Assembly: GCF_000374065.1 (NCBI RefSeq) | Contig: NZ_KB893265.1 | Coordinates: forward strand, 170 to 64,169 | Source of the DNA: Spirosoma luteum DSM 19990 | GTDB lineage: Bacteria > Bacteroidota > Bacteroidia > Cytophagales > Spirosomataceae | Direction: 5' to 3' | Length of the DNA: 64,000 nt | Part shown: piece after piece, positions 30,805 to 48,322 of the stretch | Position numbering within the stretch: the stretch's first letter is position 1 | Layout: every line of letters begins with the position of its first letter | Program-made: the position numbers and the translations under genes | The notes under the pieces: model-generated | Told to the model about the DNA's origin: nothing | Seen by the model: only the letters and a program-made list of their open reading frames with translations | Databases searched by the model: none

Positions 30805-32205
30805 ATGGAATACCGTATCGAAAAAGACACCATGGGCCAGGTTCAGGTACCGGCCAATGTGTATTGGGGAGCCCAGACTCAACGCTCCATCGAAAACTTC
30901 AAGATTGCTCAGGACATCAATAAAATGCCCCGAGAGATTATCCGGGCATTTGCCTATCTTAAAAAAGCAGCTGCGCTGACCAACCTCGACGCGGGCGTGT
31001 TGGCACAGGAGAAAAGTGATCTCATCGGCCAGGCCTGCGACGAAATTCTGGCCGGAAAACTCGACGACCAGTTTCCGCTGGTGGTCTGGCAAACGGGTTC
31101 GGGTACGCAGTCGAACATGAACGTCAATGAGGTAGTGGCTTACCGGGGCCATGTGCTCCAGGGCGGTCAGTTGACCGACGAGAAGAAATTCCTGCACCCC
31201 AACGACGATGTGAACAAGTCGCAGTCGAGCAACGATACGTTTCCAACGGCCATGCACATTGCGGCCTATAAAATCCTGCTGGACGTAACGATTCCGGGCA
31301 TTACCAAACTACGCGATACGCTGGCGGCCAAGTCGAAGCAGTTCATGCACGTCGTCAAAATTGGGCGAACGCACTTCATGGATGCTACGCCCCTGACGGT
31401 CGGGCAGGAGTTTTCGGGCTACGTTTCGCAACTGGACCACGGCCTGCGGGCTATCAATAATTCACTGGCGCACCTGAGCGAACTGGCCCTGGGTGGTACC
31501 GCGGTAGGGACGGGCATCAATACCCCCCCCAATTATTCGGAGAGCGTAGCCAAACACATTGCTACCGTAACGGGTCTGCCATTCATTACCGCCGAGAACA
31601 AGTTTGAAGCCCTGGCCGCCCACGATGCCATTGTAGAAGCCCACGGTGCGCTGAAAACAGTAGCCGCCAGTCTGATGAAGATTGGGAATGACATCCGGAT
31701 GCTGTCGAGTGGCCCCCGCGCAGGCATTGGCGAACTACACATTCCGGATAACGAGCCTGGTTCCTCCATCATGCCGGGCAAAGTGAACCCCACCCAGTGC
31801 GAGGCCATGACCATGGTAGCCGCACAGGTGATGGGCAACGACGTAGCCATCAACATTGGGGGCATGAGCGGTCATTTTGAGCTGAACGTGTTCAAGCCGG
31901 TCATGATTTTCAACTTCCTGCACTCGGCTCGCCTGATTGGTGATGTGTGTGTGTCGTTCAACGACAAGTGCGCGGAAGGCATCGAACCCATCGAAGCCAA
32001 TATCAAAAAGCATGTGGATTCGTCGCTGATGCTGGTAACGGCTCTTAACACTAAAATCGGGTACTATAAAGCCGCCGAAATTGCCCAGACCGCCCACAAA
32101 AACGGCTCTACACTGAAAGAAACGGCCCTGAAGCTCGGCTACCTGACCGAAGAAGAATTCAATGAATGGGTAAAGCCCGAAGATATGGTGGGTGAGATAA
32201 AGTAA
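30805..32205 (+). CDS. fumC: class II fumarate hydratase
   Basis: TCA-cycle enzyme, fumarate to malate, homotetramer in the cytosol. The start [16 protein letters not shown] gives 466 residues, the usual length; an upstream ATG at 30739 lies in the repeat. Signature [15 protein letters not shown] at about 315-329 and substrate-site stretches [28 protein letters not shown] and [10 protein letters not shown] are all present. A strong terminator follows. Confidence 0.97.
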
Positions 32206-46104: not shown

Positions 46105-46412
46105 CCGTCAAACTCTACGATCTGGCCCACAGCAGGGCAGGCGACAAAGGCAACACGCTTACGTTGTCGCTAATTCCCTACAACGCCGATGATTACGAAC
46201 TCCTGCGCGTCCGCGTGACCGCCGAAGCCGTCAGGCATCACCTTCGGGATATTGTGGCGGGGGAAGTGACCCGGTATGAGTTACCCAACCTGCCCGCGCT
46301 TCAATTCGTGTGCCAGCAGGCCCTGACCGGTGGTGTGACTACCTCCCTGACTATGGACACCCACGGCAAAAGTTTAAGCTACGCCTTACTGGAGATGAAA
46401 ATTGAGCGGTAG
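46101..46412 (+). CDS. AtuA-like C-terminal domain as separate protein
   Basis: A 103-residue protein matching the ferredoxin-fold C-terminal domain of fused AtuA-like proteins: LYDLAHSRAGDKGNTLTLSL, RYELPNLPALQFVCQQALTGG. It overlaps the larger gene by four bases (ATGA, 46101-46104), as expected for two subunits of one enzyme. Confidence 0.82.
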   Translation: MTVKLYDLAHSRAGDKGNTLTLSLIPYNADDYELLRVRVTAEAVRHHLRDIVAGEVTRYELPNLPALQFVCQQALTGGVTTSLTMDTHGKSLSYALLEMKIER

Positions 46413-46469
46413 AGGGGACTGGGGATGCTCTTTCCGGGTAAGTGCATGATTGCTTAATCGTACCGGCAC

Positions 46470-46477
46470 TATCTTTG
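46470..46477 (+). promoter_or_regulatory. -7 box of the mrr gene
   Basis: TATCTTTG matches TANNTTTG; TTG at 46450-46452 is 17 bases upstream. Only about 19 bases to the ATG at 46497, so a short leader. Confidence 0.6.
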
Positions 46478-46496
46478 CACACCTAAAATCATACCT

Positions 46497-47417
46497 ATGC
46501 CTGTTCCCGATTTCCAGTCCATTATGTTGCCATTTCTTAAATTCAGCAGTGATGGGAACGAACATACAACGCGCGAAGCCGTAGAATGTCTAGCTAATGA
46601 GTTTGGACTCTCCGAATCAGAACGGGAAGAATTATTGCCGTCGGGAACCCAGCGGATATTCGAAAACCGTGTTGCATGGACAAAAACCCATTTGCTTAAA
46701 GCAGGTCTAATCGAATCACCACGGCGTTCTTACTTCATATTAACCGGGCGAGGGAGAGGTGTCCTGGAAGAAAAACCGCCTAAAATTAACATAGCATTTC
46801 TGCGTCATTTCCCGGAGTACGTTGAGTTTCAATCACCGAAGCGTGACGAGAATGGACCGCAGCAGGCAAATCGACCGACTGACGACGTATCAACTCAAAC
46901 CCCTGAAGAAACGCTGGATAGCACTTACCAGAGCATTCGTAAAACGCTTTCTCAGGACCTTCTGGCTAAAATTGTCTCCCAGTCCCCCGCTTTTTTTGAA
47001 AAGCTGGTTGTTGAGTTACTCGTTAAAATGGGGTACGGTGGGTCAATCAAAGATGCGGGCAAAGCCATTGGCAAAAGTGGCGATGAAGGCATTGACGGAA
47101 CCATAAAGGAAGATAAACTCGGACTGGATGTAATCTATATCCAGGCTAAAAAGTGGGCACCCGGAAACGTAGTCGGTCGCCCGGAGTTGCATAAATTCGT
47201 TGGCGCACTGGCAGGGCAGGGGGCTAAGAAAGGCGTTTTTATTACCACCTCCAGTTTCACAAAAGAAGCCAGAGACTACGCGCCCCGCAACGAAACCAAG
47301 ATTGTGCTCATTGATGGGGAAGAACTAACCCAACTCATGATTGATTATAACCTCGGTGTAACCGTTCAGCAGACGTACGAAATCAAACGGATGGATAACG
47401 ACTACTTCGACGAATGA
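46497..47417 (+). CDS. mrr: Mrr-type restriction endonuclease
   Basis: A 306-residue protein with an N-terminal winged-helix Mrr_N domain (about 10-95, LLPSGTQRIFENRVAWTKTHLLKAGLIESPRRSYF) and a PD-(D/E)xK nuclease domain (about 155-290). The catalytic residues are visible: GDEGIDG at 196-202 and QAKKW near 216-220, then FVGALAGQGAKKGVFITTSSFT. Mrr enzymes cut methylated DNA; no methyltransferase is next to it. It has its own promoter and the FtsZ-like gene follows after 32 bases, so they are probably cotranscribed. Confidence 0.93.
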   Translation: MPVPDFQSIMLPFLKFSSDGNEHTTREAVECLANEFGLSESEREELLPSGTQRIFENRVAWTKTHLLKAGLIESPRRSYFILTGRGRGVLEEKPPKINIAFLRHFPEYVEFQSPKRDENGPQQANRPTDDVSTQTPEETLDSTYQSIRKTLSQDLLAKIVSQSPAFFEKLVVELLVKMGYGGSIKDAGKAIGKSGDEGIDGTIKEDKLGLDVIYIQAKKWAPGNVVGRPELHKFVGALAGQGAKKGVFITTSSFTKEARDYAPRNETKIVLIDGEELTQLMIDYNLGVTVQQTYEIKRMDNDYFDE

Positions 47418-47449
47418 AACCAAAACACTTCTGACAAACAATCTGTGCC

Positions 47450-48322
47450 ATGTACGACGACGAAGAAGTGCCGACGCTGACCATCATTGGTGTGGGTGAG
47501 ATGGGGGTGGCCGTGGTTAATCAACTTCTCAGGAAACCAGTCTACAGTGCCAGCTTACTCATCTGCCATGGTAGTGCCGATGTGCTGCGGGCTTCTTCGG
47601 CACCCAATAAGGTCCTGTTTGAAACGAACCGGCCCGATAATGAAGCAAAGTGGCATCTGACGGACGCGCTCAGCGATCTGACACTACCCGGCAAGTTGGC
47701 CATCATCCTATCCGATCTTGGTAGTCCTGATGATTACCGGCAGGCGGCTCTACTCGTCCAGGTTCTCAAAGAGCAGGGAAAGTGGACAGTGTCTACGGTT
47801 GGCCTGTACCCGGATCCTGATTCTGAGCAACAGCAATGGGTTGAGCGCCGGATACTTGACCTGCAACAGCAGGCCGATAGTGTCTGGATATGTACCCAGG
47901 ACCAGGAAGCCTATCGTCAGCGTGTGGAACACATGACCCGTGCGGTGAGTATTCTGGCCAGTTTCTGTGAATCAAGCATTGACTCGGCCGACTTTCCGGA
48001 CGTTATAAGAATAATTGCGAAAGCCCGTATGGCGGTGGCTGTAGCGACCGCAAAAGGAGATAACCGGGCTACCGACATTGTTACTATGGTAATTAATCAG
48101 GTGCAGACGCAAACAATGGGCGGGCCCGTTATTGACCGAATCCTGCTGATTGCGAGTACCGGTAAAGAAAAGCCGCTGTTGCTGCGCGAACAGATGGCAA
48201 TCTCAAACGGCATTAGTGACTTCATTGGCAGAGAGGTGAAGCTTTTTAAATTTGGTGCCATAACGGATGTCACACTGGGCGAACGGATCAATGTCGCTCT
48301 TTTGATAGGAATGCCTTTTTAG
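47450..48322 (+). CDS. divergent FtsZ-fold protein lacking the GTP-binding signature
   Basis: A 290-residue protein that aligns by eye with FtsZ from end to end. T1 loop region IIGVGEMGVAVVNQL (12-26) corresponds to VIGVGGGGGNAV. The place of the tubulin signature GGGTGTG holds SDLGSPDDY (88-96), so the GTP-binding loop is lost. Then LLVQVLKEQGKWTVSTVGLYPDP parallels VAEVAKDLGILTVAVVTKPF. T7-like loop SADFPDV (179-185) keeps both aspartates of DFADV, and GDNRATDIVT (203-212) matches GENRAxEAA. The end (GAITDVTLGERINVALLIG) fits the C-terminal domain. No C-terminal tail for FtsA binding is seen. Fold call moderately secure; function unknown. Confidence 0.78.
   Translation: MYDDEEVPTLTIIGVGEMGVAVVNQLLRKPVYSASLLICHGSADVLRASSAPNKVLFETNRPDNEAKWHLTDALSDLTLPGKLAIILSDLGSPDDYRQAALLVQVLKEQGKWTVSTVGLYPDPDSEQQQWVERRILDLQQQADSVWICTQDQEAYRQRVEHMTRAVSILASFCESSIDSADFPDVIRIIAKARMAVAVATAKGDNRATDIVTMVINQVQTQTMGGPVIDRILLIASTGKEKPLLLREQMAISNGISDFIGREVKLFKFGAITDVTLGERINVALLIGMPF

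Follow-up and report, generated by a model that had tools for sequence, protein, structure and literature searches.

A gene located directly downstream of mrr in Spirosoma luteum DSM 19990 was initially annotated as encoding a divergent FtsZ-like protein without the GTP loop, possibly a regulator of cell division forming a defence or arrest module with the Mrr restriction endonuclease. The locus raises the question of whether this product (hereafter pseudo-FtsZ) is a true homologue of FtsZ, whether it is functionally linked to Mrr, and what an FtsZ deprived of its nucleotide loops might do beside an ordinary one. The window, i.e. the whole stretch of 64,000 nt that was analyzed, originates from a genome of 6.6 Mb in 68 contigs (G000), which belongs to a genus sample of 36 Spirosoma genomes. 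The features of the window considered here are listed below.

47450..48322, + strand: pseudo-FtsZ gene, encoding a tail-less FtsZ homologue without nucleotide loops (290 aa, ATG start; NCBIfam, alignment, AlphaFold model and Foldseek)
47711..47737, + strand: SDLGSPDDY, residues 88-96, at the place of the FtsZ T4 box AGMGGGTGT (coordinates computed from residue numbers)
47984..48004, + strand: T7-like loop SADFPDV (residues 179-185), whose D181 and D184 are shared by all eight clade members (coordinates computed from residue numbers)
46497..47417, + strand: mrr, encoding Mrr_N and Mrr_cat domains and matching a type IV methyl-directed enzyme model; a mere neighbour, not considered to belong to a conserved system (Pfam, PADLOC)
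46470..46477, + strand: TAnnTTTG element TATCTTTG, 27 nt 5' of mrr, with a counterpart in S. spitsbergense; probably the promoter from which mrr and the pseudo-FtsZ gene are transcribed
30805..32205, + strand: fumC, 15 kb upstream of the pseudo-FtsZ gene (presumed label)

Homology of pseudo-FtsZ to FtsZ

ORF 47450-48322 encodes a genuine homologue of FtsZ, with a likeness to it that goes beyond chance. It matched the NCBIfam model TIGR00065 (ftsZ) over residues 6-285 with E = 8e-6 and a score of 25.4 bits, the model cut-off being far higher (295.2 bits). With pseudo-FtsZ as the query, FtsZ was matched in all 36 Spirosoma genomes (E from 1.8e-23 to 4.1e-12, 26-31% identity), and the best phmmer match in the PDB was also FtsZ (E = 0.0015). 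Nothing in Pfam exceeded the cut-offs, and Tubulin (PF00091) was absent even from the three weak matches obtained. Since PF00091 does not match pseudo-FtsZ, surveys gathering FtsZ relatives by means of this model, such as that of PMC9871819, are expected to miss it.

An AlphaFold2 model of pseudo-FtsZ, built with five natural sequences, reached a pLDDT of 78.3 and a pTM of 0.81 (the pLDDT of the five models ranged from 78.3 to 48.4). In a Foldseek comparison of this model with the PDB, all 50 matches listed were FtsZ (best E 2.6e-11, TM about 0.57-0.72). When the relative from S. terrae was placed first in the same sequence set, the model had a pLDDT of 80.1 and a pTM of 0.77, and FtsZ again accounted for all 50 matches listed, with E from 4.4e-19 and TM up to 0.82. 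The predicted fold is that of FtsZ and no different one; together with the extent of the NCBIfam match, this bears out the alignment with FtsZ along the whole length that had been reported initially. A Rossmann or NAD-binding protein was also considered and rejected: the Pfam matches of this kind were weak and under the cut-off, and the structure matches listed were to FtsZ only.

The motifs noted at first were all located in the protein. GGGTGTG is absent and SDLGSPDD, which replaces it, starts at residue 88, while SADFPDV and GDNRA start at residues 179 and 203, respectively. The losses extend further than had been recognized, as the T3 and T6 regions are deleted and the C-terminal linker and tail are missing. 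A normal FtsZ with GGGTGTG (L001; G000:C1:566984) is encoded in the same genome.

Distribution and residue retention

Short tail-less relatives were identified in five of the 36 Spirosoma genomes and in three of nine genomes of a sister genus (g22). The proteins of this clade of eight (286-304 aa) are all encoded by intact frames, end with the FtsZ core without a linker or conserved C-terminal peptide, and are accompanied in every one of their genomes by a full-length normal FtsZ. When placed in a tree with 29 FtsZs, these proteins constitute one side of a branch with support of 100/100; in a wider tree including long-branched paralogues their support is just 86/63. Among 390 sampled genomes of the order, 308 of which gave a match at E<=1e-30, two matches were found only in S. 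luteum and S. lacussanchae (G009), so no equally close second copy was seen outside the family in that sample.

Tail-less FtsZ paralogues of any kind were found in 16 of 222 genomes of the family, i.e. in the eight above, six of genus g33 and one each of g17 and g28, and they differ in their losses. L111, L114 and L115 retain GGGTGSG and NTDLxDV, L119 has lost the box and kept SIDFQDL, and L116 and L117 carry GLGDGTVAG at the box and DSDIQEL at T7. The reverse state, with the GTP box kept (GGGTGSG) and T7 altered (LPLADM), is represented by L121, and nearly so by L120 (GLGGVIGTG, T7 D..D absent). All tail-less paralogues may have a single origin, which has support of 72/94 in the wider tree, with long branches meeting.

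Several further FtsZ-like sequences were observed. A second copy in S. terrae (G033; L158 1297-2091) has 264 aa and is more eroded, and a 138-aa piece in G006 (L037 9034-9450) comprises the FtsZ C-terminal domain only; read by eye from unaligned sequence, both appear to be without the second T7 aspartate. In G032, an FtsZ match runs across two frames (G032:C1:6340514-6341418; 393 and 124 aa), possibly because of a sequencing error. In a sample of 296 genomes, at least two FtsZ matches were present in 18 besides that of S. luteum, and seven of these 18 were inspected. In family f36 of the same phylum, FtsZ-like proteins of about 390-410 aa occur as a second or third copy (L188, L189, L181, L185 and L186; genomes G612, G623, G688, G684 and G598); they have an altered GTP box, e.g. 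GMGKGSSRTL or GMGNGSSMLL, and N or S for the first T7 Asp. A truncated FtsZ paralogue of 235 aa in the same class (L187; G681:C24) has its GTP box missing (GYGGETATL).

Residues of the clade were compared using the numbering of L001. In all eight proteins, deletions remove T3 residues 67-71 and the conserved stretch from T6 to H7 (residues 171-180), D188 is lost, and no residue of T4 (106-115) is retained in more than one of them. The G-box is lost throughout the clade. The T1 glycines G23, G25 and G28 and both T7 aspartates, D211 and D214, are kept in eight of eight, as are G235, R238, R262, L264, E279, K299 and D305. The T7 asparagine N209 (N208 in Staphylococcus aureus FtsZ) is kept in one protein and lost in seven.

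Retention was counted for the columns with at least 90% conservation among the 29 FtsZs, with close pairs counted once, which left five lineages. We drew the limits of the regions according to motifs and to the contact regions given in PMC8936486. FtsZ-conserved columns were retained at 43% of 33 on the bottom face (T7/H8, H10 and S9) and at 17% of 65 on the top face (nucleotide loops), compared with 23% of 84 in the rest of the N-terminal domain and 28% of 50 in the rest of the C-terminal domain. The difference between bottom and top was equalled in 4 of 20000 permutations, and the excess of the bottom over the rest of the C-terminal domain in 433 of 20000. The excess of the N-terminal remainder over the top was equalled in 1948 of 20000, so erosion of the top face does not clearly exceed that of the remainder of its domain.

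The mrr gene and the genomic neighbourhood

The distance between the mrr stop codon and the ATG of the pseudo-FtsZ gene was recomputed as 32 nt, in agreement with the gap given originally. A TAnnTTTG motif, which we take to be the Bacteroidota -7 consensus, is located 27 nt before mrr in S. luteum and in its sister species S. spitsbergense (G030), and none occurs within 150 nt before the pseudo-FtsZ gene in either. Because the motif precedes mrr only, cotranscription of the two genes, as presumed earlier, is likely in both species. It is likely a local arrangement of these two, silent on function.

The proposed defence or arrest module, in which Mrr would cut modified DNA and its partner would stop division, draws on this layout and on the match of the mrr product to the PADLOC type IV methyl-directed enzyme model (8.4e-91); the PADLOC search gave no match for pseudo-FtsZ. 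At a match threshold of E<=1e-20, mrr is carried by eight of the 36 Spirosoma genomes, and the two genes are adjacent in only two of these, which are likewise two of the eight pseudo-FtsZ genomes. They are the sister species S. luteum and S. spitsbergense, which share a single inherited locus (46283-48318 of the window at 82% identity, with further blocks to 53759). In S. terrae the two genes lie on separate contigs. In G023 the next gene after mrr, at a distance of 327 nt, is homologous (61.7% over 358 aa) to the window gene situated 3' of pseudo-FtsZ, and no FtsZ-like remnant was found in between. The pair is thus not kept across independent lineages. As a conserved module it is already largely refuted, as a conserved pair it is rejected, and we consider a joint role of the two proteins in defence or arrest extremely unlikely.

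Three of the five Spirosoma copies of the pseudo-FtsZ gene sit at fumC rather than at mrr, either 70 nt after it (S. terrae) or with one gene intervening (S. sordidisoli and S. lacussanchae). Downstream of fumC, the window and S. terrae have an identical run of MarR, TolC and HlyD genes, and in G017 mrr adjoins the transporter gene of this run (92% over 471 aa). The labels fumC, MarR, TolC, HlyD, transporter and PD40-like are presumed ones, given from reading the sequences. These layouts indicate that fumC, mrr and the pseudo-FtsZ gene are parts of a single neighbourhood undergoing rearrangement. In the sister genus pseudo-FtsZ has neighbours other than those in Spirosoma, and a conserved operon partner was rejected, as comparison by eye of the neighbours of all eight genes revealed none common to all.

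A plasmid or phage gene was considered and rejected as well. A tblastn search gave no match in 72,556 plasmid records, none of 124 pattern stretches in viral contigs encoded a relative, and no PHROGs family was matched; these searches have limited sensitivity for distant relatives. In G031, mrr is split into segments encoding residues 1-254 (C1:2453733-2454500) and 250-306 (2469790-2469960), about 15 kb apart, which looks as if an element had inserted.

A possible FtsZ cap

In FtsZ of S. aureus, as described in PMC8936486, the water that attacks the GTP of the next subunit is held there by the T7 aspartates D210 and D213, and the side chain of the T7 asparagine N208 touches this subunit; a new monomer is proposed to be added through its GTP-bound top surface. 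In pseudo-FtsZ, as judged from the alignment and the predicted model, the FtsZ core and the T7 aspartates are kept, and T3, T4, T6 and the tail are gone. We propose, with a probability of roughly 40%, that this tail-less FtsZ paralogue has become one-sided, docks via its T7 face on FtsZ-GTP, caps it and inhibits division. Such a protein would neither bind GTP nor be extended on its own top side. Its T7 face would dock on ordinary FtsZ at the top face, which bears GTP, either of free monomers or of the filament end exposing that face, and would block further addition there, sequestering FtsZ-GTP and capping that end. It may also supply the aspartates triggering GTP hydrolysis by FtsZ. The outcome would be a sequestering cap, i.e. 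a negative regulator of division.

Binding or capping of FtsZ, already suggested in the initial annotation, may reasonably be supposed given the homology, the loss of the G-box and the T7 aspartates kept in all eight proteins. Several observations count against the mechanism. Loss of the T7 asparagine would weaken or change the contact with the next subunit, and T7 is altered in L116/L117, L120, L121, the 264-aa S. terrae copy and the G006 fragment. Stronger proof of constraint on the bottom face was sought in the substitutions within close pairs and was not significant (bottom 18/138, top 33/164, rest 95/534; p = 0.08); this too weighs against capping, as does the finding that the top face is no more clearly eroded than the domain it belongs to.

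The FtsZ fold may instead serve only as a scaffold, either for another partner or for lateral binding to FtsZ, and the retained aspartates might be used for folding or ion binding. This is a possible explanation, though short of probable: the patchy distribution (5/36 and 3/9 genomes), the frequent loss of the T7 asparagine and the clade-specific invariants away from T7, e.g. S49, R193 and R246, all suit it, but the preferential retention of the T7 face and of both aspartates in eight of eight does not. Stacking of pseudo-FtsZs on each other into nucleotide-independent filaments would agree with the kept fold; however, the top face, which would receive the next T7 loop, is eroded, and we regard GTP-free assembly as very unlikely.

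A decaying duplicate with no present role would also account for the patchy presence, the 138-aa piece in G006 and the eroded copy in S. terrae. For three close pairs, dN/dS calculated by NG86 was 0.128/0.704, 0.049/0.233 and 0.116/0.532 (0.18-0.22), and YN00 gave about 0.28, which indicates that the pseudo-FtsZ genes are under purifying selection. The neighbouring mrr of the first pair (0.057/0.660) has a ratio about half as high, so pseudo-FtsZ is constrained about half as tightly, a point in favour of decay. Against it stand the low ratios themselves and the intact frames in all eight genomes, and decay appears improbable. The capping mechanism could be extended to half-site FtsZs in Spirosoma and its relatives, which would have discarded their own GTP site and kept the T7 face, and would cap the real FtsZ and activate its GTPase in trans; together with the reverse-type paralogues, it looks as if two one-sided kinds were meant for opposite filament ends. 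We find such a generalization rather doubtful.

Compared with ordinary FtsZ (TIGR00065 and the host's own copy L001), pseudo-FtsZ has the same fold, core length, T7 D..D and T1 glycines, but lacks the GTP box, T3, the T6 region, the linker and the tail. Extra FtsZ paralogues without a linker or C-terminal peptide, beside one full-length FtsZ, are similarly described for Agrobacterium in PMC13170164. FtsZl1 and FtsZl2 are FtsZ-superfamily proteins which, like pseudo-FtsZ, coexist with a normal FtsZ (PMC2875224). As presented there, FtsZl1 keeps the nucleotide core, and no likeness to known C-terminal domains was found in it; pseudo-FtsZ is the reverse, as it can be aligned with FtsZ in T7 and the C-terminal domain and has lost the nucleotide loops. 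By analogy, pseudo-FtsZ may be likened to ARC3, an FtsZ chimera that inhibits FtsZ assembly in chloroplasts (PMC5855766), both being FtsZ-derived and proposed inhibitors of the assembly of real FtsZ. Pseudo-FtsZ differs in having no added domain, ARC3 being a chimera from plants that carries a MORN domain. A C-terminal MORN domain gave no Pfam match in pseudo-FtsZ, which has no room for one.

MciZ is not known to be an FtsZ homologue. It resembles pseudo-FtsZ in the proposed capping of filaments, but according to PMC8936486 its site on FtsZ is the bottom (T7) interface, whereas pseudo-FtsZ would bind the top.

Pseudo-FtsZ is real and its proposed mechanism testable; its role may be to cap division filaments or to inhibit them. 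As a natural protein with only the activating half of the FtsZ site, it could serve as a probe of T7 docking (hydrolysis trigger, blocked end, treadmilling), and it could correspond, in bacteria, to FtsZ-derived inhibitors like ARC3. In a literature search covering mainly open-access papers, none was found that joins Spirosoma, FtsZ and cell division, and none that, judged by title and opening lines, describes the pseudo-FtsZ family. MinC_C was not found in the S. luteum genome by a search that was positive in six of 14 control genomes, Bacteroides being negative among the 14. The same genome contains a tubulin-like ORF of 496 aa (L038 2635-4125, contig C6) with a GGTG box and a weak match to PF00091 (E = 0.0175), which presumably resembles FtsZl1.
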